Source: Gaiellales bacterium
Lineage (GTDB): Bacteria; Actinomycetota; Thermoleophilia; RBG-16-64-13
Length of the DNA: 36,561 nucleotides
Direction of reading: 5' to 3'
NCBI GenBank assembly: GCA_012719395.1
Contig: JAAYAL010000080.1
Location: forward strand, 1 to 36,561
This document shows, piece by piece, positions 8,999-36,561 of the stretch; position 1 is the first letter of the stretch; every line of letters starts with the position of its first letter. The notes beneath the pieces were generated by a model. That model was not told the origin of the DNA. It searched no databases and worked only from the letters and a program-made list of their open reading frames with translations. The translations under genes were made by a program, and so were the position numbers.

Positions 8999-10096
8999 AT
9001 GAGCCGCTGGGGCATCATCGGGGCCATCATCCGCAAGGACCTGGTGGAGTTCTCCCGCGATCGCCTGTGGGTGTTCCTCTCTGTGCTGGGCCTGGTGTTC
9101 TACGTGGTCCTGTTCTGGCTGACGCCGGCAAATGTGGACGAGACCCTGGTGGTGGGCGTGCACGGCGAAGGCTTGGAGCAGGCGCTGGAGCAGTACACCG
9201 CCGGGCAGGCAAAGGGCATCCGCCTGGTGCCCTTTGCCTCCGCGGAGGAACTGAGAGCGGCGGTGGAGGGTGCGCCGGGCACGTCGGAACGCGTGCTCAT
9301 GGGCATCGCGTTCCCGGATGACTTCCTGGCGGCGGCCCGGGAGGGCCGCGGCGGCACGGTCACAGTGCTGGTGGACGCCTCCGTGCCCTCGGAGACCAGG
9401 GTGGCGTTGTCCGCCTTTGTGCGCGAAACGGCGTATGCACTGGCCGGGGACGATCTTCCTGTCACCGCCCCCGACCAGCAGACGGTCATTCTGGGCCCGG
9501 ATCGGGCCGGTGACCAGATCCCTTTCCGCGACAAGATGCGCCCCTTCTTCGCCTTCTTCGTGCTGCTGGTGGAGGCAATGGCCTTGGCCTCGCTGGTGAG
9601 CACTGAGATCCAGGATCACACCGTCACCGCGCTGCTGGTGACCCCGGCGCGCACGGCGGACATCCTCGTGGCCAAGAGCACCGTGGGCACAGGCCTGGCC
9701 TTCTCGCAGGCGGTCATCCTGCTGCTGGCCCTGCGGGCCTTCGGCGCCAACTGGCCCGCCCTCCTGCTCACCCTGCTGCTGGGGGCGATAATGGTCACGG
9801 GGCTGGGCATGATCGCGGGCGCCGCCGGCAAGGACTTCATGGGCACCCTGTTCTACAGCATGCTCTTCATGATCGCCATGGTCGTCCCCGCCATGGCTGC
9901 GCTCTACCCGGGCCTGGCCTCCAGTTGGGTGCAGGCCATCCCCTCCTACGGCGTGGTGCAGGCCATTTTCGCCCTCACCACTGGGTCTACAGCCTGGGGC
10001 GATGTGGCCCGCTACCTGCTCATGGCGCTGGCGTGGTGCCTGGTGCTGTTCGGGATCGGGCTGCTGGTGTTGAAGCGCAAGGTGGAGAGTCTGTGA
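8999..10096 (+). CDS. ABC-2 type permease, first of two
   Basis: The protein has 365 residues. One membrane segment lies near residues 22-42 (LWVFLSVLGLVFYVVLFWL). A large extracytoplasmic domain (about 43-175) is followed by five or six membrane segments from about 178 to the end. This 1+5 layout is the ABC2_membrane_3 architecture of NatB/YhgE-like exporters. EIQDHTVTALLVTPAR, after the second segment, matches the conserved E-(R/D)-x-T-x-x-x-L-L-x-(T/S)-P motif of the family that contacts the ATPase. GAGGAG precedes the ATG. It is 28 bases downstream of the ATPase gene and probably forms a heterodimer with the next permease. Confidence 0.88.
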   Translation: MSRWGIIGAIIRKDLVEFSRDRLWVFLSVLGLVFYVVLFWLTPANVDETLVVGVHGEGLEQALEQYTAGQAKGIRLVPFASAEELRAAVEGAPGTSERVLMGIAFPDDFLAAAREGRGGTVTVLVDASVPSETRVALSAFVRETAYALAGDDLPVTAPDQQTVILGPDRAGDQIPFRDKMRPFFAFFVLLVEAMALASLVSTEIQDHTVTALLVTPARTADILVAKSTVGTGLAFSQAVILLLALRAFGANWPALLLTLLLGAIMVTGLGMIAGAAGKDFMGTLFYSMLFMIAMVVPAMAALYPGLASSWVQAIPSYGVVQAIFALTTGSTAWGDVARYLLMALAWCLVLFGIGLLVLKRKVESL

Positions 10097-18510: not shown

Positions 18511-21306
18511 TCAGGCTATTCCCAAGGCGCGCTTCATGGGTTCGGTAATGGTTTGGGTGCGTTGTACCTGGAAGTAGCCGGCCCAGGGGTCATCCTGGAG
18601 ATGGGCCAGCCGGCGACGCAGGTTGCGCACGGTGTAGCTGTCGGGGCGGGCCCTCCCTCCCAGTTCGTCCCAGCGCAGCGGTACCGCCACGGTGGCGTGT
18701 GCCCGGGCCCGGGGAGAGAAGGGGGCAATGGCAGTGGCCCCGCGTGCATTGCGCAGGTAGTCCACGAAGGTCTTGCCCGCCCGCTTTGCCTTCGACACGT
18801 TGGAGGTGTAGCGTTCAGGCGCCGCCTTCACTATGGCGTCGGCCACGGCCTTTGCGAAACGTTTGACCCCTTCCCAATCCTCGCCCGGCATGAGGGGGAC
18901 CGCCACGTGGAGGCCCTTACCCCCGGTGGTCTTGACGAACGAGACCAATCCCAATCCCTGCAGTAGATCGCGCACGAGGTGAGCACCCTCCACCAGCCCA
19001 GCCCAACCGACGGCAGGATCAGGGTCCAGATCGAAGACCAGCAGATCGGGGCGCTCGATGTCTGGCCAGGTGGAGCCCCAGATGTGGATCTCCAGCACCC
19101 CCATCTGCGCCATGGCCATCAGGCCGGCCACTTCGCCCAGGGCAAGGTAGTCTCCCAGGCCTCCCGACTCCAGGATCTCCATCCGCTCAACCGGCCCCGG
19201 GAAATCCCGGCCGGGATGCTTGTGGAAGAAGCAGGCTCCCCCCCGGCCCTGCGGCTCCACGCCCCCCACCCCCTCCGGACAGCGCACCATGGCGACCGGA
19301 CGGTGCAGTATGTAGGGCAGCATATGATCCGCTACCGCTTGGTAGTACCGGACCAGATCCAGCTTCGTCAATCCATCCGCCGGCCAGAACACGCGCCCGG
19401 GGTTGGTGAGCCGCACGCCGAGGACCTCGGTCTCCCCCAGCGTGTGGCGCAACCGTCCCGCGGCTCCTCCCCCGGCCACTCCTCCGCCGGCGGCGAGGCC
19501 GGATGCCCGGCGCGCCGGCCGGACCCCCTTTCTTGGAGGGGAGGGCACCGCGGGTGCGGGCGGCAGTGGCACCTGAGATCGTGGTGGAGCCTGGGGTGGC
19601 GGTGAGGCCTCGCGTTCCTCGCTCACCTCGCCGGCCGACTTGTCCTCCCGCAGGCCTCTGAAGCTGGGGTGCCGGATCCCACCGTCCGCGGTCCACTCGG
19701 TGAAGGCCACCTCAGCCACCAACTCCGGCCGTACCCAGTGCGCTCCTTTGGGAGCCCGCTCCAAACCCAACTCGAATGGCGGCACAGCCACCTTCAGCGC
19801 CGCCAGCCTCCGGCTCAGCTCGCGCAGCATCCTCTCGTTGAACCCCGTGCCCACCCGGCTCACGTAACGAAGCTTCCCTTCCGGCCCGTGAGTACCCAAC
19901 AACAGCGCCCCGAAGCCCCGTCGCGCCCCCGACGGGTCCGTGAACCCGCCCACCACGAACTCCTCGTGGCGCACGCACTTCACCTTGAGCCAGTCACCTC
20001 CGCGGAAACCGGGCCGGTACGCACTGTCTGCCCTCTTGCTGACTATGCCCTCCAGCCCCAGCCGGCAGGCCTGCTTGAAGAAGGCGTCGCCCCTACCCAC
20101 CACGTGCTCCGTATAGCGGAGCCGGTTCGCAGCGGGAGCCGCCGTCAGCAGCTCTTGGAGCAGCGTCTTGCGCCCCTCCAAGCGCACACCGGTGAGATCC
20201 CAGCCGTTCAGGTGCACAAGATCGAATACATAGTAGAGGAGACGTCCGGTGCGGCCACCCGCCAGGTCGTCCTGTAGGGCCCGGAAGCTGGTGGTGCCAT
20301 CCGGCAGTTGCACCACCACCTCGCCGTCCAGCACGGCACTCTCCGCGGGAAGCGCAGCCACGCTCTCCGCGATGGGAAGGTAGCGGTCGGTCCAGTCCTT
20401 CTCGTTGCGAGAGTAGATCTCCACGCCACGGCCCGTCAGCCGCGCCAGAGCCCGATAACCGTCCAGCTTGATCTCGTGCAGCCAACCGTCGCCAGAAGGG
20501 ACCGTCTTCACCAGGGTGGCGAGTTGCGGCGGCACGAAGCGGGGCGGAGGAGCCGCGGCCCGGCGGGCGCCGAAGAGCCGCGATGGATCCACGGGGATAT
20601 CCGCAGGCTGGGGACCATCCACCCGCCCCTCCGGCGGCCGGTCACCGTGCCATACGTGGCCCTGCGCCTCACTCGCAATCTGCTCGAGGCTTCGCCCGCT
20701 GACCACGGATTCCGGCCGCCGGTCCAGCACGGCGCGACCCTCACCATCCACGGCTTGCTCGTCGCGGTGCTTGATCAGCAACCAGTTCTCTTTGGCCTCT
20801 TCCCCCGGACGAGAGCGCATCCGCGCCAACACCCAGCCACCCCGCAGCTTCCGACCGCGCAATTGGAACTTCAGGTCACCCTTGGCCAGTCCCTTGTGCG
20901 GGTCACCCACCGGTTCCCAGGTGCCCAGGTCCCAGAGAAGAACCGTGCCGGCGCCGTACTCCCCTTTGGGGATGGTTCCTTCGAATGAACCGTACTCCAA
21001 GGGATGGTCTTCTGTGCGCACGGCCAAGCGCCGATCACGTGGATCCAGCGACGGCCCTTTAGGCACAGCCCATGAGAGCAGAACGCCGTCCAGTTCCAGG
21101 CGGAAGTCGTAATGGAGACGAGTGGCGGCGTGTTTCTGGATGACGTAGAGACGTTGGCGCGGCTCCGAAGACGAGCTCTCCGCAGCCGCGCCGGCCTGCA
21201 CCTGAGCGACATCCTCGCGCGCAGGCCCGGCCGCGTGCTCTCCCCCGGCCGGCTCGGGAGTCCTGGCAAAGTCCCTTCTGGCCCGATAATCATCGAGCGG
21301 TGCCAC
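18511..21306 (-). CDS. ligD: ATP-dependent DNA ligase D (phosphoesterase-ligase-polymerase)
   Basis: The protein has 931 residues and performs end processing, gap filling and sealing in Ku-dependent non-homologous end joining. Order: 3'-phosphoesterase (about 50-190; His59, His65-Tyr-Asp67, His101 in EDHPLEY), ligase (about 260-555; nucleotidyl Lys280 in EIKLDGYR, DGEVVV, SKRADSAYRPG), then a 70-residue Pro/Ala/Gly linker, then the primase-type polymerase (about 635-931; metal site FDLDPDP, TTGGKGLHV, DYLRNARGATAIAP). This PE-Lig-Pol order is that of Pseudomonas LigD, not the Pol-PE-Lig order of mycobacteria. The start is GTG 21306, 3 bases after the ku stop, with GAGG 9 bases before it in the ku tail, so translation is coupled. 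Confidence 0.94.
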   Translation of the reverse strand: MAPLDDYRARRDFARTPEPAGGEHAAGPAREDVAQVQAGAAAESSSSEPRQRLYVIQKHAATRLHYDFRLELDGVLLSWAVPKGPSLDPRDRRLAVRTEDHPLEYGSFEGTIPKGEYGAGTVLLWDLGTWEPVGDPHKGLAKGDLKFQLRGRKLRGGWVLARMRSRPGEEAKENWLLIKHRDEQAVDGEGRAVLDRRPESVVSGRSLEQIASEAQGHVWHGDRPPEGRVDGPQPADIPVDPSRLFGARRAAAPPPRFVPPQLATLVKTVPSGDGWLHEIKLDGYRALARLTGRGVEIYSRNEKDWTDRYLPIAESVAALPAESAVLDGEVVVQLPDGTTSFRALQDDLAGGRTGRLLYYVFDLVHLNGWDLTGVRLEGRKTLLQELLTAAPAANRLRYTEHVVGRGDAFFKQACRLGLEGIVSKRADSAYRPGFRGGDWLKVKCVRHEEFVVGGFTDPSGARRGFGALLLGTHGPEGKLRYVSRVGTGFNERMLRELSRRLAALKVAVPPFELGLERAPKGAHWVRPELVAEVAFTEWTADGGIRHPSFRGLREDKSAGEVSEEREASPPPQAPPRSQVPLPPAPAVPSPPRKGVRPARRASGLAAGGGVAGGGAAGRLRHTLGETEVLGVRLTNPGRVFWPADGLTKLDLVRYYQAVADHMLPYILHRPVAMVRCPEGVGGVEPQGRGGACFFHKHPGRDFPGPVERMEILESGGLGDYLALGEVAGLMAMAQMGVLEIHIWGSTWPDIERPDLLVFDLDPDPAVGWAGLVEGAHLVRDLLQGLGLVSFVKTTGGKGLHVAVPLMPGEDWEGVKRFAKAVADAIVKAAPERYTSNVSKAKRAGKTFVDYLRNARGATAIAPFSPRARAHATVAVPLRWDELGGRARPDSYTVRNLRRRLAHLQDDPWAGYFQVQRTQTITEPMKRALGIA

Positions 21307-21309
21307 GCC

Positions 21310-22191
21310 CTACGCCTCTTTCGCGGCGCGCCTCTTCCGCTTCGCCGCGCCACCGCCGAGGGATGCCGCCTCCCCGCCGACCCGTGGCGCCTGCCGCTTC
21401 CGCTCTTCCACGCTCCTCTTGAGCAGCGCCATGATGTCCACCACCTGGCCACCCTCCGCTTCCTCGCGTGCCGGCGCCGATGCGCTTTCCGTCAACTCGC
21501 CCCGGCTCACCTTGTCTTCTATCAGGCGCAACAGGTCCTCGCGGTAGGTATCACGGTACTGAGTGGGATCCCATTCGGTGACCATGGCATTCACCAACCG
21601 CTCCGCCATCTGCACTTCCTGCGGGCTGATGCCCAGTCGCTCCAGGTGCAGCTCCGGTAGGTCAAACTCCTCCGGGCTGCGCAACTCGTAGCTCCAGCGG
21701 AGCAGGTCCACCACCAACATGGGCCCGTCCGCCTTGAGGGCGCAGACGTGCTGGCGGCTGCGGATGACGACCTTTCCTATACCCACCCTGTCGCTGCACG
21801 TCAGCACCTCGCGCAGCAGCGCATAGGCTTTGCGGCCCGTCTTCAGCGGCTCCACGTAGTACGGCTTCTCGTAGTAGACGGGATCGATGGAGCGGGCGTC
21901 GACAAAGTGCATGAGATCAATGGATTGGGTGGCCTCCACGTTGGCCGCCTCGAAGTCTTGGGGCGTGACCACCACGAACCGGTCCTTCTCGTACTCGTAG
22001 CCCTTGACGGTGTCCTCATAAGCAACTTCGTTCTGCTCGATATCAAAACGACGCTCACGCACCGGCTGCAGGTGGGCACGGTCCAGGGTCCGGAACACGA
22101 GATCACTCCCTGCCGACTGTGCCGGATACAGCGAGACGGGGATGGTCACCAATCCAAAGCTGATGGCCCCCTTCCAGAGCGGACGAGGCAT
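21310..22191 (-). CDS. ku: Ku DNA end-binding protein
   Basis: The protein has 293 residues and forms the homodimeric ring that binds double-strand DNA ends and recruits LigD. It begins with the family hallmark MPRPLWKGAISFGLVTIPVSLYPA truncated here to MPRPLWKGAISFGLVTIPVS. It continues with YEYEKDRFVVVT and the bridge region (IDPVYYEKPYYVEP), and ends in a Lys/Arg-rich tail (AAKRKRRAAKEA) that in other bacterial Ku proteins aids DNA binding. GGGAGG lies 5 bases before the ATG. It is the first gene of the ku-ligD operon and divergent from the PPC-domain gene across a 205-base gap in which I see no clear promoter. Confidence 0.94.
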   Translation of the reverse strand: MPRPLWKGAISFGLVTIPVSLYPAQSAGSDLVFRTLDRAHLQPVRERRFDIEQNEVAYEDTVKGYEYEKDRFVVVTPQDFEAANVEATQSIDLMHFVDARSIDPVYYEKPYYVEPLKTGRKAYALLREVLTCSDRVGIGKVVIRSRQHVCALKADGPMLVVDLLRWSYELRSPEEFDLPELHLERLGISPQEVQMAERLVNAMVTEWDPTQYRDTYREDLLRLIEDKVSRGELTESASAPAREEAEGGQVVDIMALLKRSVEERKRQAPRVGGEAASLGGGAAKRKRRAAKEA

Positions 22192-23130: not shown

Positions 23131-23586
23131 CTAGTGGGGACGCTGGGATCCGCGCGATCGCCTTTCGGGACGAGGGACAACCTCAAAGCCCTGCTGCTCG
23201 AAGTGGCGATCAATGGTGAATGCGGTCTTCACTCCCAAACGGCGCATGCACACGAAGCTGGTGCAGTCAACCAGGCTGAGATCGCGCCGGCAGGCCACGC
23301 GCAGTGCCGATTGTGCCTCTCGATGCAAGGACTCGTCGACCCACACCGTGCTCACCCAGGGGAGCACGTGGTCATGCAGGGCGGCCACGGCGGCCACGCC
23401 CAAGCGCCGCCCCAGCAGCGCGTGCATCTCCACCAAGACGTAGTTGGTCACCAGCAGAGGCGCCTGCGAGTGGAGCACCTCTCCCCACGCCTCCGCAGTC
23501 ACCCCGTGCCAATGGTCATCCCGGTCAAAGACCGCATACAGCGCAGATGTGTCCAGCATCAGCGGGCCGGGCCCGACCTCTTTCAC
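23131..23586 (-). CDS. PIN-domain toxin (VapC-like ribonuclease)
   Basis: The protein has 151 residues. It is a PIN-domain endoribonuclease, probably the toxin of a type II pair. The acidic cluster is complete: Asp12 (LMLDTSALYA), Glu53 (YVLVEMHALL), Asp107 (LSLVDCTSF) and Asp126 (AFTIDRHF). DHWH near residue 24 is common in this subgroup. Family members cleave tRNA or rRNA; the target here is unknown. Its GTG start overlaps the antitoxin stop (GTGA). The C-terminal 15 residues are basic and low-complexity. Confidence 0.87.
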   Translation of the reverse strand: MKEVGPGPLMLDTSALYAVFDRDDHWHGVTAEAWGEVLHSQAPLLVTNYVLVEMHALLGRRLGVAAVAALHDHVLPWVSTVWVDESLHREAQSALRVACRRDLSLVDCTSFVCMRRLGVKTAFTIDRHFEQQGFEVVPRPERRSRGSQRPH

Positions 23587-23861
23587 CCGTCTCCCTCATC
23601 CACGCAAAGGTCCGGCCGGAAGCCATCCTCCAGGTAGTCATCATGGCGTGCGGCCACATCGCTACGTCCAGACGCCGCCCACCCCACCACCTGCAGTGCA
23701 TCCAGTCTTGAAAGCCCGACTGCGGGAACAACCCCCCGGGCGTCCAGAAAGCGATCCACTGATTGCCGGACAAGCTCAGCCACGGACTGGTCCGTCTCCC
23801 GCGAGAGGCACTGCAGCCTCTCTGCCTGATCGGCGCGCAACTGTATTTGGGTTCTGATCAT
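23583..23861 (-). CDS. Ribbon-helix-helix antitoxin of the PIN toxin
   Basis: The protein has 92 residues. Residues 1-41 form a CopG/Arc-type ribbon-helix-helix: strand IRTQIQL, helices DQAERLQCLSRET and SVAELVRQSVDRFLDA. It should bind its own promoter and, through the C-terminal half (YLEDGF and acidic end), neutralise the toxin. It is placed first and overlaps the toxin start, as usual for such pairs. The ATG at 23861 has no ribosome binding site but sits 6 bases after an extended -10 element, so the mRNA may be leaderless. Confidence 0.83.
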   Translation of the reverse strand: MIRTQIQLRADQAERLQCLSRETDQSVAELVRQSVDRFLDARGVVPAVGLSRLDALQVVGWAASGRSDVAARHDDYLEDGFRPDLCVDEGDG

Positions 23862-26960: not shown

Positions 26961-28334
26961 TCACCCTCGGCTCCGGGTGTCCCGAATCCTCCTCTTGCCG
27001 GGCGCAGCCGTCTCCCCTCCCGTCGTGACCTCGATCCTCACGCCGGTGTGGGAAGCAGCGACGGCCGGGATGGCCTCAACGTCCGCTTCTAGCCCTTCGA
27101 CCCTGGCCCTCGAAGGCCGGCCCCGCGCCGTCACCGTCAAAACCAGTTCACCGCAGGCAGTCGGCCACGAAAGGCCGGCGGGCGCAGCATCGGTCACCTC
27201 CGCCGAGAACGTGCGCACCCACTCCTGCGCGTAGACCACGCCGTCCAGATCGGCCATGGTGAGGCGCTCGGCCCCCCCGAGGTCCACCTCGTCCGCCATC
27301 CTCCCCCGCACGCGGTCCAGGCACCGGAGCACGCTGCCACAGGCGCAGCGCCCCCTCAGCAGACGCCCGCTATCGCCCGTGCGATAGCGGATGAGCGGCA
27401 TCCCCCGCCGTGTGAGCGTGGTCACCACCAGTTCCCCCCACCGGCCACGAGGCAGCGGCTCATGGGTGTCGGGGTCGACCACTTCGAAGAGGAGATCGGC
27501 CTCCCGGATGTGGAGCCCGGCAAAGGCACGGCACTGCACGGCCCCGCCCAGCCCCGTCTCCGTGGAACCGTAGTGCTCGAACACGCGACAGCCCCAGGCC
27601 CGCTCGATGGACGCGCGCACCGGTTCGGCCACATAATCGCCGGAGAACAGCACGCTCTTCACGCGGCCCACGGGGATCTCCCTCCCTTCGCGGCTGCGGG
27701 CCAGCCACAGCACCTGGCCGGGCACGCCCACCAGGCAGTCCGCCCCGAACTCCAGGATGCGTCGCGCCACGCGCCCGCAATCGTCCACGAACCCGTAGGC
27801 CTCCGCCTCCACCCCGTCGCGGGCGAGGGCCACGCGCAGGAGGGCTCCCACGCTGCCCGGCGCCGGGCCAGGCATGAGCACCAGCACCCGGTCTCCGGGC
27901 TCGACCAGCGCCCGCATGCCGTGCCGGAAGTGATCCGCAGTGAGTTCCAGATCCCCCTCGGTGAACCACAGGCGCTTGGGTTGCCCGGTGCTGCCCGAGG
28001 TGGGCAGGGTGACCACGCGGGCGATGTCACCCAGAGGGACGCAGACCAGATCGGTGCCGCGCCGGCGCACGTCGTCCTGGGTGACGAAGGGCAGACCACG
28101 AAGGTCCCGCAGACCTCGCGGCTCATTAGAAGGCAGACGAGCATAGAGCTCACGATAGAAGGGGCTCCGTTCGCGCGCCCAGGCGACGACCTCCGCCAAC
28201 TGCCGGGACTGCCAACGGGCCAAGGCATCACGATCCACCACGGGGACAGGACAATCCGGGGCTGGGCAAGCGAGGCCAAGACGCCGCGCCGTCCAGCCGT
28301 CCAAGGGGGTGCGGGGAGGTGCCGCCACGTTCAC
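26961..28334 (-). CDS. Phenylacetate-CoA-ligase-like AMP-forming acyl-CoA synthetase (DVU_1553-type)
   Basis: The protein has 457 residues and the adenylate-forming fold: P-loop TSGSTGQPK (112-120), FEHYGSTETGLGG (around 250), LIRYRTGDSGRLL (around 320), and a degenerate C-terminal lid. The core is nearest to PaaK. After the TGD motif it has a zinc-knuckle-like CACG and the family's short RMADEVDLGG. It should activate a carboxylate with ATP and CoA in the cytosol. I recall this subgroup named after DVU_1553 of Desulfovibrio vulgaris, always beside a Mop-like oxidoreductase; the acid is unknown. The start is GTG 28334, overlapping the TrsS stop (GTGA). Last intact gene of the operon; a decayed thioesterase follows. 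Confidence 0.85.
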   Translation of the reverse strand: MNVAAPPRTPLDGWTARRLGLACPAPDCPVPVVDRDALARWQSRQLAEVVAWARERSPFYRELYARLPSNEPRGLRDLRGLPFVTQDDVRRRGTDLVCVPLGDIARVVTLPTSGSTGQPKRLWFTEGDLELTADHFRHGMRALVEPGDRVLVLMPGPAPGSVGALLRVALARDGVEAEAYGFVDDCGRVARRILEFGADCLVGVPGQVLWLARSREGREIPVGRVKSVLFSGDYVAEPVRASIERAWGCRVFEHYGSTETGLGGAVQCRAFAGLHIREADLLFEVVDPDTHEPLPRGRWGELVVTTLTRRGMPLIRYRTGDSGRLLRGRCACGSVLRCLDRVRGRMADEVDLGGAERLTMADLDGVVYAQEWVRTFSAEVTDAAPAGLSWPTACGELVLTVTARGRPSRARVEGLEADVEAIPAVAASHTGVRIEVTTGGETAAPGKRRIRDTRSRG

Positions 28335-29722
28335 AGCCGACGCGGGTACAGACGATCACCGGACACGCCGGTGAGGTTCCAGAGGCAAAAGGGGACCAGG
28401 CCGCGGCCCGGAGCCACGGCATGCACGCAGCACTGCCGTATGCGCTCCAGGTCGATGCTCCAGGCGTCCTGGAACAGCATGCCGGACACGGAGAGGATGC
28501 GCCCGGCCTCCGCCAGGAAGCGATCCAGGTCGTCCCCGGGCTCGTTGGGGCAAACATCTGCGCCGCTGAGCCCGCGCGGCAAACCCTCGGGGGACGGCGC
28601 CACACGCGGCCCACGTCCCCACTGCCGCGCCGTGGCAGCGATAGCGCGGCGTGCCGCGGAGCCTGGTTCCGCGGCGCACGGTGAGGGCGAAGGGCGAACC
28701 CATTCCAACTCACCACCGTCACGCACCCAATATCTGGCCCGGAAGGAACAGCGCACGTGCTCGCACGAACTGGGCTCGAAGTCGGAGGCCCGAATGGCAC
28801 CTTCAGTCTGCCGCTCCAAGCCCCGCAGGACTTCAGGGAGCGTGAGCCGAGCCCGCTCCACTCCCCGGTAGCGCCCGAAGTAGCTCACCGGCTGGAAGTG
28901 CACCCCGCGCACCACCCCCGCCCAGCCAGCCGCGAAGCGCACCAGCGCGCCCAGTTCGTGATCATTCACGCCGGGCACCAGCGTGGGCACCAGCACCACC
29001 CCCAGGCCCGCTTGGGCGCAGCGCTCCAGCGCGCGTTGCTTGACCGCCAGCAAGGAACGACCTCGGATGAACCGGTAGGTGGCGTCGCTCAGCCCGTCGA
29101 ACTGGAGGAAGACGGAGGCAAGCCCCGCCTCGCACAGGCGCTCGGCATACCCCGCCTCGGCGGCCAGGCGCAGCCCATTGGTGTTCACCTGCACAAACGT
29201 GAACCCGGTAGCCCGCGCGGCGCGCACGATGTCGAGGAGATCCTCCCGGAGCGTGGGCTCGCCCCCGGACAGCTGCACATTCACCGGCCCCTGGTTCACC
29301 AGGAGGTCCCGCAGCACACCTCTCAGCTCCCGCAACTCCGGATCGGCCTCCTGGACGCCAGGCGCCGCATCGGCGAAGCAGATGCGGCAGTGCAGGTTGC
29401 AGCGGCGCGTGACGTCCACCACCGCCGTGCAGGTGGACTGCCGGTGCTGCGGACACAGGCCGCACTCCAGGGGGCAGCCGTCGGAGGCCGCCGGAGGCGG
29501 CGCGTTCCCGCAGGCGGAGGCCTTCTCTCGGCACCAGGAGCGGTAGGAGGGCAACCCGCGCCAGATGACGGTGCGCCAGGGACCGTGCTGCGGACAGGTG
29601 GCCTCCAGCACCACGTCGTCGCCGCTGAAACGTCGCACTGCCGGCACCCGCCGCAGACAGACGGGGCAGAGGCTCTCGGTGGGTTCCAGCGTTTCCTGGG
29701 CTTCAAGCCCTTCTGCCGTCAT
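28331..29722 (-). CDS. trsS: Radical SAM protein TrsS-like
   Basis: The protein has 463 residues. An N-terminal Cys-rich zone (CPVC 19-22; CPQHG 43-47; CPLECGLCPQH 83-93) is followed by the radical SAM core: CNLHCRIC with Cys108, Cys112 and Cys115 for the 4Fe-4S cluster, SAM-binding QLSGGEPTLRED (150-161), and VNTNGLRLA. The C-terminal third has further cysteines: SSCEHVRC (319-325), QCCVHAV (430-436) and VPFCLWNLTG. I recall NCBI naming this family radical SAM (seleno)protein TrsS; here all candidate positions are Cys and there is no in-frame TGA. The N-terminal pattern also resembles archaeal tetraether lipid synthase (Mj0619). The start is ATG 29722, with GGGAG 6 bases upstream. The reaction is unknown. 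Confidence 0.85.
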   Translation of the reverse strand: MTAEGLEAQETLEPTESLCPVCLRRVPAVRRFSGDDVVLEATCPQHGPWRTVIWRGLPSYRSWCREKASACGNAPPPAASDGCPLECGLCPQHRQSTCTAVVDVTRRCNLHCRICFADAAPGVQEADPELRELRGVLRDLLVNQGPVNVQLSGGEPTLREDLLDIVRAARATGFTFVQVNTNGLRLAAEAGYAERLCEAGLASVFLQFDGLSDATYRFIRGRSLLAVKQRALERCAQAGLGVVLVPTLVPGVNDHELGALVRFAAGWAGVVRGVHFQPVSYFGRYRGVERARLTLPEVLRGLERQTEGAIRASDFEPSSCEHVRCSFRARYWVRDGGELEWVRPSPSPCAAEPGSAARRAIAATARQWGRGPRVAPSPEGLPRGLSGADVCPNEPGDDLDRFLAEAGRILSVSGMLFQDAWSIDLERIRQCCVHAVAPGRGLVPFCLWNLTGVSGDRLYPRRL

Positions 29723-29732
29723 CCGAGGCTCC

Positions 29733-30179
29733 CTACCCGTCACGCGACTCGGTGGGATCGAAGCCGTGCTCCAGCAGCATCTCCATGGTCTTGCCATAGA
29801 CCCTTGCTACCATGGGGCCGCAACGTTGTTTGCGCGGCGTCCCGTCGCTCAGGATGTCGTCGCAGCAGACACCGCCATACCGGGCACCAACCTCCGCCTC
29901 AAACCAATCCCACAGTTCCTCCAGCATGAGCCAGAGCCGTTCGTCCTCCTCCTCCTCCTCGCAGCCTTTCCCGGCGTGGAGCGCGATGAGGCAGGCGGCG
30001 CCGCTCAGCGCGCCGCAGGTACCCGCGCCCCTTCCCACTCCCAGTGCCAGACCACCGGCGGCCCGAACGAGGTCGGTGTTCTGCTTGCCCTGCGCCTCAA
30101 GGCCCAGCTTGAGCAGGATCTGGCTGCAGTAGTAGCCCTTCTCGGACATCTCCATCATGTGCAGTTGGATCTCATCCAT
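29733..30179 (-). CDS. C-GCAxxG-C-C family protein (DVU_1555-type)
   Basis: The protein has 148 residues. The family's spaced cysteines are present: Cys18 (GYYCSQILL), Cys55 in GTCGALSGAACLIAL (the GCAxxG motif with Thr for the first Gly), Cys63, Cys73, the pair Cys105-Cys106 and Cys120. Such proteins are thought to be redox or metal carriers and are often exported or found beside oxidoreductases; the exact role is unknown. An acidic run EEEEEDE (75-81) could bind a basic partner. The ATG 30179 is chosen over TTG 30185 because GAGAGG is 6 bases before it. It lies 45 bases after the methyltransferase gene and 10 before trsS. Confidence 0.83.
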   Translation of the reverse strand: MDEIQLHMMEMSEKGYYCSQILLKLGLEAQGKQNTDLVRAAGGLALGVGRGAGTCGALSGAACLIALHAGKGCEEEEEDERLWLMLEELWDWFEAEVGARYGGVCCDDILSDGTPRKQRCGPMVARVYGKTMEMLLEHGFDPTESRDG

Positions 30180-30224
30180 GTCCAACCTCTCCCTCGAGTC
30201 GAGCCTTACCCCGTGAGCCCTGCG

Positions 30225-31073
30225 TCAGCGGCACTCGGCCACCAGCAGGAAGTACCCGGGCTTCGCTGCCGTCACCTTCTCCCGGGTGAGGGAGCACGCA
30301 GCAGCGGGTGCCCCTCCCAGCGCAGCCTGCCAGAAGCCGGCGACCGAGCCGTAGGCAAACACCATCTGCGCCAGGAAGCGCGTGAGCACCTCCGAGCGAT
30401 CGCGCCAGAACAGGGGGGCGAAGCCGCTCTCCTCAAGCCGCGAGAGGACCATGTCCCGGCCCACGGCCCCGTGCAGACACGTCGTGGAGGGAAGCGAGTG
30501 CGTAGGCGTGGCGTGCGGGGGGTTCCGCAGGTAGAGATCGGAGACCGCCAGACGGCCGCCGGGGCGCAGCACGCGGTGCGCCTCCAGCAGCGCCTGACGG
30601 GGATCGTCTAGTTGGGTTAGGAAGCATTCGGCGAAAACCGCGTCGAAGGAATCCTCGGGGAGCGGAACATGCTCTGCCTGCCCTTGCACCCACGTGACCG
30701 GCGCGCACGGCAGGCGCGACCCGCAGCTCCCTGACCGTGGGCCGAAAGCCCGCTCGTGGCCGTCCTGACACTGCCCAGTCTCCCTCCCGCTGGCCTCCCT
30801 CTCGCGGACCTCCCGTGCGCGGGCCTCACGCAGATGCTCGGCAGAGACATCGAGTCCCGTGACCACGGCCCCCCATACTCTCGCCAGATACAAGGCCGTG
30901 GACCCTACCCCACACCCCAGGTCCAACACGCGCCGACCGGCCGTCAACCCACAGACCTCCGCCAGTTCCCCGGTCAGCTCCAGCCCCCCCGGCCGCAACT
31001 CGCCACCGGCGGCGGCGCGGAAGGATGCCTGATCGTAGAGGCACGACGGTTCGCGCGACTCACTTGCTCTCAA
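30225..31073 (-). CDS. Class I SAM-dependent methyltransferase (DVU_1556/TrsM-type)
   Basis: The protein has 282 residues. SAM motif I is VLDLGCGVGST (49-59), the acidic ribose contact is TGLDVS (72-77), and the post-motif RVLRPGGRLAVSDL (167-180) is typical of class I enzymes. Features of this subgroup are ELRPGGLELT before motif I, the cysteines Cys150 (AECFL) and Cys199 (TTCLHGA), LAQMVFAYGS, and the end AAKPGYFLLVAECR. A hydrophilic insert of about 35 residues (88-122, rich in Glu, Arg, Gly and Cys) interrupts the fold after motif II. The start appears to be TTG 31073, overlapping the previous gene by 14 bases. The substrate is unknown; arsenite methyltransferase-like enzymes share this layout. 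Confidence 0.83.
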   Translation of the reverse strand: MRASESREPSCLYDQASFRAAAGGELRPGGLELTGELAEVCGLTAGRRVLDLGCGVGSTALYLARVWGAVVTGLDVSAEHLREARAREVREREASGRETGQCQDGHERAFGPRSGSCGSRLPCAPVTWVQGQAEHVPLPEDSFDAVFAECFLTQLDDPRQALLEAHRVLRPGGRLAVSDLYLRNPPHATPTHSLPSTTCLHGAVGRDMVLSRLEESGFAPLFWRDRSEVLTRFLAQMVFAYGSVAGFWQAALGGAPAAACSLTREKVTAAKPGYFLLVAECR

Positions 31074-31278
31074 GGACCTGCTCCACCTCGGCCATGCGCC
31101 CGGTGGCCAGCTCCTCGGGGATCAGGTAGATCCCGCAGTGCGGGCACCGCGGCAGATCCAGCGTGAACGCGTTCCCCAAGTACGTGAGCTGCACCGGCCC
31201 CACCTCGAGCGGCCGCCCGCAGTGACAACACACCCAGCGCAGATCATCCTCGCTGAGACGGGCGATGCTGCTGCTCAT
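31060..31278 (-). CDS. Small two-CxxC redox/zinc-ribbon protein (DVU_1557-type)
   Basis: The protein has 72 residues. WVCCHCG (15-21) and PRCPHCG (44-49) give two CxxC pairs, a rubredoxin-like or zinc-ribbon arrangement. The ending IPEELATGRMAEVEQVLESK is a helix conserved, as I recall, in proteins annotated DVU_1557 family redox protein. It probably carries electrons or a metal for the neighbouring enzymes. The ATG at 31278 overlaps the previous stop as TGATG and has GGGGG upstream. A GTG one codon earlier is possible. Confidence 0.8.
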   Translation of the reverse strand: MSSSIARLSEDDLRWVCCHCGRPLEVGPVQLTYLGNAFTLDLPRCPHCGIYLIPEELATGRMAEVEQVLESK

Positions 31279-33545
31279 CACACCCCCTTCCCCGCGGTCA
31301 TGCGGTGGCCGTAGGCGTTGTGCACCTGGAAGCCACCGTCCGCCGCCGGCGAGTACTCCACCCAGAAGGTCACCAGACGCGGCCGGTGCGAGGCCAGGAA
31401 ATGGCCGGTCACGCTGTGGCAGAGCTTCTCTTCCGTGGTTTCTGCGTGGTGGATCACCTGTTGCACATCCTCCAGCAGGATGCGGCGCTCGTCCAGCCGA
31501 GCCTGCACCTCCTGGGAGATCAACAGCTGCACCGCCTGCCAGGGCTCCACCGCACGGCCTCCTTCATCCCACAGTTGGGCGAGCAGCCGCTCCCGGAGAA
31601 GAGCGCGATGCTCGCGGCGTTTCGACCACCCCGGTCGTGGTCGGGCGGCTGGGTCAGTGTCCGCCTCCCCCGGAAAGACCAGGTCAAGCATGTGGACAAC
31701 CCGCTTGCCGGCCGCGGCCAGGCTGTCGCGGCACATGGCGCAATAGGTCACATATTCCAGGGGGCTTTCCGCGGCACGCCGGGTGGCCACCGTGCGCGCC
31801 AACTCCGGGAAGACGTTGGCCTCCAGGCCCCCATAGCCGCAACACTCCGTGATCTCCTGGGACAGCGCCAACTCCTCCAGGGGCTGCCCCACAAGCCCCA
31901 GCAGGCGCCGCGCGCTCTGCTGCAGGCCAGGGTGGTGGCGGGTGGTGCAGGGATCGTGGAGAGCGCGCAAAGGCCACTCCCGCTTCTGGGCAGCCGGCGA
32001 CACTCCCACCTCTTCCAGCACCTGGGTCAGGAACCGGCTCTCCGCCCCTTTCAGCCGGGGGCCGAGCAGCCCGTAGCAGGTGGGACAGGCGAAGATGAGC
32101 GTGGGGCGGCCGAGCGCCTGCCAGCGCGCTCGAATGTCGGCCACGCCCTGTTCGAAGAGGTCTTCCCTCCCCGCCCAGTGAACGGGAGCGCCGCAGCAGT
32201 CCAGGATGAGACCCACGCCGCCGGACAGCCGCTCGCGAAGATGCGCGTACACCATCTCCACCTGCGCCGGATCGGACCCGGCCAGCTGGCAGCCGGGAAA
32301 GAAGGCGTAGGTGGTGGTAGCGGCCTCGGGCGCCGGGCGGGCCAAAGCGAACGAAGGCCCATGGCTCCAGGCATAGTCCTCCAGGGCAAACTCGTAGGCG
32401 GAGGGCGGCATCTTGCCTATCCCCGCCATCTCACGCCGCGCCTCCAGACAGAGATCGGGCATGGAGAAACGCTCGGGGCACACCGTGGTGCAGAGGTCGC
32501 AGAGCATGCAGGAGTTGATGAGGAGGTTGGCTTTGCGTTCGCCGAGGACGATGGAGGAGTTGTTGTAGATGTCACGGGCGTAGCGGCGAGGGTAGCTGCC
32601 GAAGTGCTTCAGGTACTCACAAACCTTCACGCACTCCAGGCATTCGCAGCGCAGGCAGCGCTGCGCCTCCTGCTGAGCCTCTTCCGCCGAGTATCCCATC
32701 GCCGGATCCGCCGGTCTCACCGCCGCGAGCGGCTCCACCCCGGCCAGGCTGACGACGAGGCGCGTCGACTGCGGGCCTTCCTTCTCCCGCCCCGCGGTGA
32801 GCGATGCCTTCTGCATCATCCTGTCAACCGAGACCGCCGCCCTCCGTCCGGCAAGCGCCCAGCCCACCGGCGACACCGCGGCGCCGGCCGCGGTGTCGCC
32901 ACCGACAAACACCGCCTCCTCTTCCCCGGGCAGACGCCCCAGACCCGACAGCCCGGCATCGAGCCCCACGTACACGGCATCGAACCCGGCCCGCAGCGCC
33001 GGCACGCCTGGGAACTCGCCCACACGGAGATCCACGCCCAGCCTGCGAAGCGCGGCCAACTCGGACCCCAAGGCGGCCGCGGCCAGCACCTCCTCCGGGA
33101 ATCCGAGGAGCAGGCCGCCGATCCGATCAGCCGGCTCATACACCGTGACGGGGTAACCCTTGCGAGCCAGGTCTGAGGCGAAGGTGAGGCTGGACAGCCC
33201 GGAACCGGCTACGGCCACCCGCTGGGCGCGGCGCGGCAGAGGCAGGATGCGCTGATCGGGAGGAGTCACCTGCACGCAGGCCCTCTCCAGCGCTCCCACG
33301 CGGATGGCCTCTCCACAGTCCCGCCGCCTGCAGCGCACCTCACAGGGGTGGTCACATATGCGACCCAGTACCGCCGGCAGGGGCATGGCTTTGCGCAGTA
33401 TCTTCCAGGCATCCGCCCAGTCCCCCCGCGTCGCCGCGATGACGAAGGAACGCGCGTCCACGTGCAATGGGCAGGCGGCCACACACTCCGCCGGCTCTTC
33501 TTGGATACAGCGCCGTTCGAACTCATGCAGCCGCGCTTGCTCCAC
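31278..33545 (-). CDS. Flavin/iron-sulfur/CCG-domain electron-transfer protein (DVU_1558-type)
   Basis: The protein has 755 residues and several cofactors. Residues about 12-90 form a GltD/DPYD-like N-terminal iron-sulfur module (CVAACPLHVDA; CDHPCEVRCRRRDCGEAI). Residues about 105-235 hold an FAD-type Rossmann fold (VAVAGSGLSSLTFASDLA), with GGDTAAGAA as the second nucleotide loop. Then come cysteine clusters CLRCECLECVKVCEY and CMLCDLCTTVCPERF for two 4Fe-4S centres. After these are two CCG domains (FFPGCQLAG...LDCCGAP; DPCTTRHH...ECCGYGG, CAMCRDSL) as in heterodisulfide reductase HdrB/HdrD. It is a good candidate for passing electrons between the aldehyde oxidoreductase and a soluble acceptor. 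GTG start with AGGAGG 7 bases upstream. Confidence 0.87.
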   Translation of the reverse strand: MEQARLHEFERRCIQEEPAECVAACPLHVDARSFVIAATRGDWADAWKILRKAMPLPAVLGRICDHPCEVRCRRRDCGEAIRVGALERACVQVTPPDQRILPLPRRAQRVAVAGSGLSSLTFASDLARKGYPVTVYEPADRIGGLLLGFPEEVLAAAALGSELAALRRLGVDLRVGEFPGVPALRAGFDAVYVGLDAGLSGLGRLPGEEEAVFVGGDTAAGAAVSPVGWALAGRRAAVSVDRMMQKASLTAGREKEGPQSTRLVVSLAGVEPLAAVRPADPAMGYSAEEAQQEAQRCLRCECLECVKVCEYLKHFGSYPRRYARDIYNNSSIVLGERKANLLINSCMLCDLCTTVCPERFSMPDLCLEARREMAGIGKMPPSAYEFALEDYAWSHGPSFALARPAPEAATTTYAFFPGCQLAGSDPAQVEMVYAHLRERLSGGVGLILDCCGAPVHWAGREDLFEQGVADIRARWQALGRPTLIFACPTCYGLLGPRLKGAESRFLTQVLEEVGVSPAAQKREWPLRALHDPCTTRHHPGLQQSARRLLGLVGQPLEELALSQEITECCGYGGLEANVFPELARTVATRRAAESPLEYVTYCAMCRDSLAAAGKRVVHMLDLVFPGEADTDPAARPRPGWSKRREHRALLRERLLAQLWDEGGRAVEPWQAVQLLISQEVQARLDERRILLEDVQQVIHHAETTEEKLCHSVTGHFLASHRPRLVTFWVEYSPAADGGFQVHNAYGHRMTAGKGV

Positions 33546-33573
33546 GGAAGACCTCCTCGCGGCAAGGGCAGGA

Positions 33574-33609
33574 ACCGGCGGGGTCCCCCCAAGGGGCGCC
33601 CCCGCCGGC
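33574..33609 (-). other. Strong intercistronic hairpin between mop and the electron-transfer gene
   Basis: ACCGGCGGGG (33574-33583) and CCCCGCCGGC (33600-33609) pair over 9 bp plus a wobble, with C-run/G-run pairing possible inside the loop. It lies in the 78-base gap, 14 bases after the mop stop and 28 before the next start. With no T-run it is more likely an RNA-processing or stabilising element than a terminator. Confidence 0.5.
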
Positions 33610-33623
33610 AGACTACCTCAAGG

Positions 33624-36404
33624 CTACAGTGCCTTCAAGCCGGCCAGGACCTTGTCGGGCAGGGCCGGCGGATGGGTGATGCGCACGCCGGTGGCGTGGT
33701 AGATGGCGTTCAGGATGGCCACGTGCGGTGCGGTCAGCGTGAGCTCACCGGCACCGCCCGCGCCGAAGGGGCCGACACGCGGCGTCTGCACGTACAGAAG
33801 CTCGATGTCGTCCGGTACGTCAGCCGTGTACGGCAAACCACAGGAATGCAGCGTGGTGTGTTTGTCGAAGTCCTCGAAGTCCTCGCTCAGCGCCAAGCCG
33901 ATACCCTGGGCAATGCCGCCGTACAGCTGGCCATCGACCACGAGCTTGTTGTTGATCTTGCCCATGTCCGCGACGGCCGTGAACCTCTCCACGCTGGTCT
34001 TGCCGGTCCTAATGTCGACCGCCACTTCAGCCAGGAACACCCCATACTGGTGACAGACGTACATGTTGCCCTGGAAGTCCTGGTTGGGAAACTCGCAGGG
34101 CAGCGTGTAGGTTCCCTTGTAGCGAGTGGGGATGCCTTCGGCCACCATCTCGTCGTAGGTGCGATAGCTGGTGTAGGTAACCTTGCAGGATCTCCAGGAA
34201 GCGCCTTCTTCGCGCTCGACGTCCTCCCAGCAGGTGACGTCCGCTTTCTTCATGGCCTGTAGGAGCGTCTCGCAGGCGATGCGCAGGGCGTTGCCTGTCA
34301 CCAGCTGCTGGCGGCTGCCGGCGGAGTTGCCGGAGACCGGCACCAGAGCGGTGTCGTTGCCCACCTGGCTGATCTGTTCAGGCGTGAGACCCAGCGGGCG
34401 CAGCGCTTCGTGGACGGTGCCCAGCACGCCCATGTCGGCGCCTTGGCCGTGGTCTTCCCAGGAGTGGTAGACGGTAACGCCGTCCTTGGTGAGCTCCACC
34501 TCCACGTCCGAGGTATCCGGGCCGAACAGGCCGCAGCCGAAGATGCCGAGCGCGACGCCCACGCCCTTCTTCACTGTGGCGGTCGACTCCTTCTGGGCCC
34601 TCTCCTGCGCGGCTCTGTACGTGGGCCTGACGGTGTCGAGCATCTGTGGCAGCGAGTAGACATCCAGCGGGGCGCCGAACGGCGTGGTGGAGCCAGGACG
34701 GTTCACGTTCAGATAGCGGAGTTCCAGCGGGTCCATGCCGATCTTGCCGGCCAGTTCGTCCATCAGGCTCTCGAACGCCAGATAGGTTTCCGGCGAGCCG
34801 AAGGAACGCATGGCCGTGCCGTAGGCGTGGTTGGTGCACACCGAGCGCAGGTCGCCGCGGATGTCGGCAATCTCGTACCCTGCCCCCATGGTCTGGGAGG
34901 AGATGTTGCAGCTGATATCGCCCAGTTCCGAGAAGGGACCGTGATCCAGGGTGAGATCGTACGCGGCGCCGACCAGTCTGCCCTTCTCGTCCGCGCCGAT
35001 GCTGAGGCTTACGTAGGCCGGCGGGCGCTTACCGGTGCTGGCGATCTGCTCCTTCTGGTCGAAACGCAGGTAGGCCGGCCTCCCGGTGGCCAGCACGGCC
35101 ACCGCCACCAGAGCCTCGTTGGTGGGGCTCAGCTTGTAGCCGAAGGTGCCGCCGGTGGGATTCTGGATGATCCGCAGCTTGTCCATGCCCACACCGATAC
35201 CCTCGGCGATCATGGCCATGTGCATGTGGATACCGATGCTCTTGGATTGAATGGTGAGGACACCATCGTCGTCCAGGTAGGCGAAGGCCACGTCCGGCTC
35301 GATGGGCAGATGCGGCTGGCGCTGCAGGCGGAAATCACCCTCCACCTTGTACTTGGCCTGGTTGATGGCCGCCCGGGGATCCTGGCCCTTCTTGAGCGTC
35401 ATCTCGAAGTAGACATTCGGCGTCCCGGGGTGGATCTCGATAGCGTCGTCGGCCATGGCCTCGGGAGCGGTCATGTAGGCCGGAAGCACCTCGTACTCCA
35501 CCTTGACCTTGGCGGCCGCAGCCCGAGCGTTGGCTTCGGTATCAGCGCAGACCAGAGCCAGAGCGTCACCCCTCTTGAAGACCTTCTCGTCGTTGAGGAT
35601 GGGCCGATCCCAGCCGTCACCCTTGTTGCCGGGGAAGGTGGTCACGGCCAGGATGCGGTTCTTACCCTTGACGTCTTTGCTCGTGAGCACGCGGAACACG
35701 CCGGGCATCTTCTCGGCCTCAGACGTGTCGATGCTCTTGATGATGGCATGCGACACTTCCGCGCCCACCACTGCCAGCCGCAGCGTTTCCGGCGGCAGAT
35801 CCAGCCCCAAGTCCGCACCAAACAACCAGGTGCCGGTGACCTTGGCCACGGCGGAAGGACGGGGATAGTCGCTGCCCCAGATGCGCCCGTCGGCCGGCAT
35901 CTTGAACTCCAACTCCTCGCGGGCCATCTCGCCGCGCAGCACCTTGGCCGCATCCATGACGGCGTCGACACTGACCTTGTAGCCGTTGCAGCGGCAGGCG
36001 TTCCGGTTGCGATCGAACCAGTTGCGCACTTCCTGCCGAGTGGGGTCCGGGTTCTCGTCCAACAAGGCTTTGGCCGCCACCACAAAGCCGGGCATGCAAA
36101 AGCCGCACTGTGCAGCTCCGTGCTTCACCAGGGCCAGCTGGATAGGATGCAGGCTCTCCGGAGCGCCGACGCCCTCCACCGTGGTCACACAGGCACCGTC
36201 CGGGACACGTTTCATGGTGGTAGTGCAGGAGCGCACGAGCTTGCCGTCGAGAATGACCGAGCAGGCTCCACACTGCCCCTGCCCGCAGCCGACCTTGGTC
36301 CCTGCCAGGTGTAGCTGGCCACGGATGACGTTGACCAGCTTCTCGTCTGGGTCTACCACCACAGCCCTGGGTAGCCCGTTGACATAGATGCTCTTTCTGA
36401 TCAT
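33624..36404 (-). CDS. mop: Molybdenum aldehyde oxidoreductase (Desulfovibrio Mop type)
   Basis: The protein has 926 residues and the xanthine-oxidase family single-chain form, oxidising an aldehyde to its acid at a molybdopterin cytosine dinucleotide centre. Iron-sulfur ligands fall at the D. gigas Mop numbers: Cys40, Cys45, Cys48, Cys60 (plant-type cluster) and Cys100, Cys103, Cys137, Cys139. EFKMPADGRIWGSDYPRPSA begins the molybdenum part; GGTFGYKLSPT, EDHGQGADMG and GNSAGSRQQL are cofactor contacts; the catalytic Glu is Glu887 in GAGGAGELTLTAPH (Glu869 in D. gigas). It has no FAD domain, so electrons must leave to another protein, probably the next gene product. The ATG 36404 begins MIRKSIYVNG, with GGGAG upstream. 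Cofactor insertion (XdhC-like) genes are not in the window. Confidence 0.94.
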   Translation of the reverse strand: MIRKSIYVNGLPRAVVVDPDEKLVNVIRGQLHLAGTKVGCGQGQCGACSVILDGKLVRSCTTTMKRVPDGACVTTVEGVGAPESLHPIQLALVKHGAAQCGFCMPGFVVAAKALLDENPDPTRQEVRNWFDRNRNACRCNGYKVSVDAVMDAAKVLRGEMAREELEFKMPADGRIWGSDYPRPSAVAKVTGTWLFGADLGLDLPPETLRLAVVGAEVSHAIIKSIDTSEAEKMPGVFRVLTSKDVKGKNRILAVTTFPGNKGDGWDRPILNDEKVFKRGDALALVCADTEANARAAAAKVKVEYEVLPAYMTAPEAMADDAIEIHPGTPNVYFEMTLKKGQDPRAAINQAKYKVEGDFRLQRQPHLPIEPDVAFAYLDDDGVLTIQSKSIGIHMHMAMIAEGIGVGMDKLRIIQNPTGGTFGYKLSPTNEALVAVAVLATGRPAYLRFDQKEQIASTGKRPPAYVSLSIGADEKGRLVGAAYDLTLDHGPFSELGDISCNISSQTMGAGYEIADIRGDLRSVCTNHAYGTAMRSFGSPETYLAFESLMDELAGKIGMDPLELRYLNVNRPGSTTPFGAPLDVYSLPQMLDTVRPTYRAAQERAQKESTATVKKGVGVALGIFGCGLFGPDTSDVEVELTKDGVTVYHSWEDHGQGADMGVLGTVHEALRPLGLTPEQISQVGNDTALVPVSGNSAGSRQQLVTGNALRIACETLLQAMKKADVTCWEDVEREEGASWRSCKVTYTSYRTYDEMVAEGIPTRYKGTYTLPCEFPNQDFQGNMYVCHQYGVFLAEVAVDIRTGKTSVERFTAVADMGKINNKLVVDGQLYGGIAQGIGLALSEDFEDFDKHTTLHSCGLPYTADVPDDIELLYVQTPRVGPFGAGGAGELTLTAPHVAILNAIYHATGVRITHPPALPDKVLAGLKAL

Positions 36405-36479
36405 GCGGGTACTCCCTCTCCAGTATGAAGTCAAGCTAAGGGCCTATCCCGGTAGGAATCCTGAAGCACCCATCGAATA

Positions 36480-36514
36480 CTCTGATCGGCCGGCCATCTG
36501 AGCACCGATCAGAG
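36480..36514 (+). promoter_or_regulatory. Hairpin overlapping the transposase ribosome binding site
   Basis: CTCTGATCGG (36480-36489) and CCGATCAGAG (36505-36514) form a perfect 10-bp stem with a 15-base loop. The right arm runs into GAGGAGG (36512-36518), the ribosome site of the transposase. When transcribed from outside the element, the stem would hide part of that site. Confidence 0.55.
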
Positions 36515-36522
36515 GAGGAACC

Positions 36523-36561
36523 ATGGGACTCGTCGATCGCGACGATGGCTGGCGTATCCCC
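36523..36561 (+). CDS. IS5-family transposase, first 13 codons only
   Basis: The visible residues are MGLVDRDDGWRIP. This matches, from memory, the start of IS5-family transposases of the D-D-G-W-R-I-P-D type that continue with a tryptophan and a P-L-L-P motif. GAGGAGG lies 4 bases before the ATG. The rest is outside the window, so integrity is unknown. Confidence 0.6.
   Translation, partial: MGLVDRDDGWRIP

Follow-up and report, generated by a model that had tools for sequence, protein, structure and literature searches.

A seven-gene locus couples a molybdenum aldehyde oxidoreductase to a Tes-like radical SAM module that may supply a redox carrier or cofactor

The DNA analysed here originates from a Gaiellales bacterium (GCA_012719395.1, contig JAAYAL010000080.1) and the window refers to the whole stretch from position 1 to 36,561. 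Between 26961 and 36404 it encodes seven genes, all on the minus strand and either overlapping or spaced by less than 80 nt, as described in the original prediction, and all seven score above the cut-offs of their own curated NCBIfam models. The gene mop (33624-36404) encodes an MCD aldehyde oxidoreductase (NF045668, 1452 bits, cut-off 1100) and precedes the gene of a FAD/4Fe-4S dicluster/double CCG protein, here called dicluster protein (31278-33545; NF045663, 957 bits, cut-off 530). These are followed by the small CxxC...CxxC redox protein DVU_1557 (DUF7479), the extent of which was corrected to 31060-31278 (NF045645, 91 bits, cut-off 60), and by the class I SAM methyltransferase DVU_1556 with an invariant Glu-Cys in the motif AECF (30225-31073; NF045667, 209 bits, cut-off 155). 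The C-GCAxxG-C-C redox protein DVU_1555 (29733-30185; NF045669, 163 bits, cut-off 103) returned chance-level matches only when compared with the PDB. The radical SAM protein TrsS, present in its cysteine form (28331-29797; NF045646, 574 bits, cut-off 490), probably starts near 29722 instead of 29797, and the last gene encodes the AMP-forming, PaaK-like CoA ligase DVU_1553 with the catalytic Lys kept (26961-28334; NF045666, 438 bits, cut-off 300). Scans for sigma-70 promoters and terminators gave no excess over shuffled sequence. Elsewhere in the window, genes for LigD and Ku (bacterial end joining) adjoin each other at 18511-22191, and a PIN-domain protein with an overlapping ribbon-helix-helix protein at 23131-23861 constitutes a typical toxin-antitoxin pair.

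The region upstream of mop (36405-36561) is ended by the contig edge. It contains AGGGCCTATCCCG, followed by a ribosome-binding site and the start MGLVDRDDGWRIP of a divergent gene, which is probably a transposase gene. The element cutting the contig looks like an insertion sequence, and as the contig ends just there, the upstream region of mop is not readable. A second Mop of the same genome lies at the end of contig C1; it shares 88% identity with the Mop found in a sister genome's cassette, while the window cassette Mop is only 64-65% identical to either of the two. AGGGCCTATCCCG is common to the end of the window and the end of C1 (L168, about 9650-9782), and both ends run into transposase-like reading frames. 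The orientation of the contig ends would fit, but does not prove, a tandem mop pair with an insertion sequence in between (mop2-IS-mop1-cassette). A Pfam search with the short C1 peptide gave no match.

The seven families and their order are those of DVU_1559-DVU_1553 in Desulfovibrio vulgaris, as the NCBIfam family names (NF045645, NF045646, NF045663, NF045666-NF045669) bear out for the parallel drawn in the original prediction. Judging by their adjacent accession numbers, the families appear to have been curated together, so that the existence of the system as such is not new. DVU_1559 is listed as Aor (PMC10920352). It is distinct from the gene named 'aor' that showed a strong chlorate phenotype in the fitness study of D. 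vulgaris: that gene, DVU1179, encodes a tungsten enzyme and was discarded as a source of information on this locus. In contrast to D. vulgaris, the window set has no adjacent DVU_1551 NTP transferase and no adjacent XdhC_rel_AOR, its Mop pocket has diverged and its TrsS is the Cys form. For DVU_1551 and XdhC_rel_AOR the own genome yields weak matches (80 bits against a cut-off of 315 and 181 against 350, respectively); as other members of the set lack them too, the two linked genes are not strictly defining. In Clostridium ljungdahlii tandem four-protein sets (CLJU_RS11815-11870) comprising Mop, a FAD/CCG protein, a four-Cys protein and a C-GCAxxG-C-C protein were described together, with the suggestion that a carrier is reduced or oxidised via the CCG pair; the passage concerned does not mention TrsS, the methyltransferase or the ligase (PMC5640608). 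The earlier statement that the system has no known function was right in that the literature searched contained no description of a function of the set, although NCBIfam curates the families and four of the seven proteins appear in that passage.

With profiles grown from the window proteins, 83 TrsS loci were mapped in one genome scan and in stretches of related genomes. Many of these loci are truncated by contig ends; within them TrsS (83) is accompanied by the ligase in 80, the C-GCAxxG-C-C protein in 77, the methyltransferase and DVU_1557 in 74 each, the dicluster protein in 66 and Mop in 63 cases. The loci are distributed over Desulfobacterota, Clostridia/Negativicutes, Chloroflexota, Betaproteobacteria, Campylobacterota and Actinomycetota, and since the order seen in the window (mop, dicluster, DVU_1557, methyltransferase, C-GCAxxG-C-C, TrsS, ligase) recurs in most of them across six phyla, the seven-gene arrangement is beyond chance. 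Frequent neighbours are the MocA-HD-CobC-like NTP transferase DVU_1551 (NF045665; 55 of 83) and the XdhC-like maturation factor XdhC_rel_AOR (NF045664; 53 of 83), followed by a MoeA-like protein (20), sigma-54 activators (18) and a cysteine desulfurase (14). For Clostridium a mop regulon of unknown function under the sigma-54 activator MopR was predicted (PMC6615313). In Sporomusa a 105-aa protein without NCBIfam match lies between cysteine desulfurase and TrsS (L109 at 9648-9962, L120, L129).

Where it is divided, the cassette splits cleanly into mop-dicluster-DVU_1557 (module 1) and methyltransferase-C-GCAxxG-C-C-TrsS-ligase (module 2), with both parts retained in the genome, a pattern that is new here. 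In the class containing the Desulforhabdus genome of L063, mop-dicluster-DVU_1557 stand alone at three loci (L211, L212, L213) and the same genomes carry the other four genes at L063, L066 and L097, the first with an additional copy of DVU_1557; at L214 both modules lie about 2 kb apart. In one genome of the own family (G206), mop-dicluster-DVU_1557 and DVU_1557-methyltransferase-TrsS-ligase are found on different contigs. As the ligase stays with TrsS in split cassettes, it is to be grouped with TrsS and not with Mop. Pairwise distances of the dicluster protein, methyltransferase, C-GCAxxG-C-C protein, TrsS and ligase are correlated with each other (0.64-0.83), and those of Mop correlate weakly with module 2 (0.31-0.57). 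Separately, a gene of the aldehyde:ferredoxin oxidoreductase family was seen about 2 kb from the Mop-less TrsS module of Desulforhabdus (L063, 5760-7718).

Mop and TrsS occur near one-to-one in three bacterial groups, which is also new here. Among 288 Desulfovibrionaceae genomes 172 encode both, 16 only Mop, nine only TrsS and 91 neither; the 56 genomes of the class of L063 include nine with both, none with only Mop, two with only TrsS and 45 with neither, and in the own class, where identity was used to separate TrsS from Tes-like matches, the corresponding numbers for 299 genomes are seven, two, one and 289. These counts ignore the relatedness of the genomes and p-values derived from them are only descriptive. 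Most of the discordant genomes that were read represent contig ends or search misses; the reading covered ten of the 16 Mop-only Desulfovibrionaceae and the TrsS-only genomes other than G653 and G655. Among those ten, TrsS is in fact present in three (G574, G575, G715), Mop lies at the end of a contig or close to it in six, and the remaining one (G641, L237) has an apparently decaying cassette with mop and methyltransferase in two frames and with TrsS and ligase lost. The TrsS-only loci that were read are explained by the ends of contigs, by remnants of Mop or by Mop genes with split frames; eight discordant genomes have cut, partial or frame-split loci, and in G482 Mop is present in pieces. 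Two draft MAGs (G483, G484) encode TrsS and have no Mop above the cut-off. The co-occurrence of the homologues, proposed originally as the observation on which the prediction should stand or fall, was thus put to the test, and the families were found together.

The copy numbers are informative as well. Among 24 Desulfovibrionaceae with two to four Mop matches, two TrsS occur in one genome, none in two and a single one in the rest (about 21). At 12 extra Mop loci that were read, none has the dicluster protein, methyltransferase, C-GCAxxG-C-C protein, TrsS or ligase nearby (0/12); an iron alcohol dehydrogenase adjoins Mop at seven of the 12 and a MoeA-like gene at others. Because these loci are free of the module and mostly have alcohol dehydrogenases alongside, the extra Mops look like alcohol-to-acid enzymes that rely on a shared module. 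That several Mops share one TrsS suggests that the set acts on Mop in trans and is not part of a linear pathway.

A reference point for the enzyme itself is the Mop of Desulfovibrio gigas, since its genome (G761, L167) carries mop-dicluster-DVU_1557-methyltransferase-C-GCAxxG-C-C-TrsS-ligase in identical order, differing in that xdhC directly follows. The Mop encoded there corresponds to the chain of 1VLB/1SIJ, being identical over 309 residues and of the same length (907). According to a review by its discoverer, the structure at 1.28 Å contains an ordinary MCD and two [2Fe-2S] clusters, lacks flavin and carries an oxo where a sulfo ligand is usual, and flavodoxin is described as a putative partner (PMC10223205). 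This enzyme stems from a cassette genome and shows no reported trace of the module, so that a covalent modification of Mop or its MCD was marked down as an explanation. The window Mop (58% identity to D. gigas Mop) keeps the eight Fe-S Cys residues and the catalytic Glu869 (D. gigas numbering). It differs at positions 394, 425, 494, 497 and 535, at which the Mops of C1 and of the sister genome match D. gigas and which we take to line the substrate tunnel. These changes, together with about 17 additional residues (VTCWEDVEREEGASWRS...) in the window Mop, suggest that it acts on another substrate.

Up to about residue 216 the dicluster protein can be aligned with the FAD half of NfnL/GltD/DPD-type proteins, and it has no NAD(P)H domain, which makes the name 'pyridine nucleotide-disulfide oxidoreductase' misleading. 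It contains two complete CCG (HdrB/GlpC-type) cysteine motifs (Pfam CCG); among 64 members, the cysteines of these motifs, like those of the N-terminal sites and the ferredoxin pair, show 96-100% conservation. For its C. ljungdahlii homologue, a membrane carrier served via the CCG pair was proposed in the passage on the tandem sets (PMC5640608). With Mop having no FAD, and the protein offering a GltD-like FAD half, ferredoxin sites and two CCG motifs, the earlier assumption that it takes up the electrons of Mop fits; judged from these motifs, it is a candidate electron acceptor of Mop. As the missing partner, a flavoprotein encoded beside mop is more plausible than flavodoxin.

The closest solved structure to TrsS is the tetraether synthase Tes/GDGT-MAS, an enzyme of archaeal membrane lipid synthesis that joins sp3 carbons of lipid chains (MJ0619, 7TOL; E 1e-87), and an AlphaFold model of TrsS (mean pLDDT 81) matches 7TOM/7TOL over 494 columns with a TM score of 0.72. 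By alignment with the ligands reported for Tes (PMC9433317), the four metal sites and the labile Met were found in TrsS as sequence motifs, with the C-terminal cluster ligands, terminal Cys residues in both proteins, partly assigned. C44-x2-C47-x20-C68-x2-H71 corresponds to the rubredoxin-type site, C108, C112, C115 and H118 to the N-terminal Cys3His cluster site, which is missing in a close relative, C133/C137/C140 to the CX3CX2C motif and Met440 to the labile Met439. Unlike Tes, TrsS has Ala at the position of Tyr459, a replaced substrate cap and an aldehyde oxidoreductase operon as its setting: the helices conserved in bacterial Tes-like proteins are absent from the segment C345-M440, which contains an additional invariant C374, usually in a CC motif. 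As fold and ligands are kept and the cap segment is changed, Tes-type chemistry on another substrate is likely. Plasmid-borne relatives yielded nothing beyond Tes-like or weaker matches below 60% identity. In agreement with the original remark on selenoproteins, TrsS is classed as a (seleno)protein family (PMC13188914). The window TrsS contains no in-frame TGA and full-length open frames are found in the 83 mapped loci; a reading of TGAs in relatives as selenocysteine codons was rejected, as the alignment places them upstream of the start.

Taken together, a functional link between Mop and the module is very probable. The near-invariable co-occurrence, and the presence of one set in spite of several Mops, suggest that what the set supplies is a cofactor or electron carrier needed by Mop. 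We tentatively favour, at somewhat less than an even chance, that the locus is a support cassette for Mop, in which module 1 provides an electron route and module 2 a redox carrier or cofactor. Aldehyde would be oxidised to acid at the Mo-MCD site and the electrons would pass the two [2Fe-2S] clusters of Mop to the dicluster protein, which would provide the flavin that Mop lacks and might hand them via its two CCG sites to a small carrier. In module 2 the CoA ligase would activate a carboxylate and TrsS an inert C-H bond in the manner of Tes, with a 5'-deoxyadenosyl radical and an auxiliary cluster with labile Met, possibly forming a C-C or C-S bond. The methyltransferase and the C-GCAxxG-C-C protein might then finish or handle the carrier or cofactor, and one module 2 would serve every Mop in the cell. 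Against this reading stand the weak correlation of the Mop distances with module 2 and the two draft MAGs with TrsS but no Mop above the cut-off. The original interpretation holds in part.

The same near obligate co-occurrence, and the several Mops per module, would also be expected if module 2, together with the XdhC-like and MocA-like proteins, tailors, sulfurates or inserts Moco for every Mop. The frequent presence of XdhC_rel_AOR, the DVU_1551 NTP transferase and cysteine desulfurase (53, 55 and 14 of the 83 loci) speaks for such a maturation role, which we nevertheless consider doubtful: we know of no role of a CoA ligase in Moco maturation, the own genome and its sister keep module 2 though their DVU_1551 protein is not above the cut-off, and D. 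gigas Mop, with the whole operon in its genome, has an ordinary MCD and two [2Fe-2S] clusters (PMC10223205).

Chemical logic and the common operon order would instead suggest a linear pathway, in which the acid formed by Mop is converted by the ligase to a CoA ester that TrsS and the methyltransferase modify. What speaks most strongly against this rather improbable scheme is that several Mops go with a single module and that the extra Mops, most of them beside alcohol dehydrogenases, lack a ligase of the set in their surroundings; in addition, split cassettes keep the ligase with TrsS and not with Mop. The position of the ligase in split cassettes and its absence near extra Mops likewise leave the earlier proposal that the CoA ligase activates the acid of Mop unsupported. 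A role of the cassette in making a lipid, with TrsS as a Tes-like synthase of bacterial membrane-spanning lipids, is very unlikely, even though the closest structure, the full-length fold match and the kept labile Met point in this direction: TrsS stays below the cut-off of the Tes model (NF045702, 336 of 450 bits), the substrate-cap region differs with Tyr459 lost, and a strict link to an aldehyde oxidoreductase would be unexpected for a lipid enzyme. Within the favoured reading of a support cassette, the narrower proposal that the four-gene module makes a new small (lipophilic or thiol) redox carrier, which in sulfate reducers, acetogens and other anaerobes would be the true electron acceptor for Mop and its dicluster protein, is a speculative one and on balance unlikely.

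The Mop of D. gigas provided the first structure of the xanthine oxidase family, and what takes up its electrons physiologically is still described as putative. Mop-type enzymes are almost always accompanied by a single Tes-like radical SAM module and a FAD/CCG protein, and the cassette offers a concrete bacterial setting to study non-lipid relatives of tetraether synthase. If module 2 makes a carrier or cofactor, common anaerobes would contain a new redox metabolite, and the reconstitution of Mop with flavodoxin would merit a second look. If the carrier reading is true, the natural partner and carrier would have been missing when the first xanthine-oxidase-family structure was studied.
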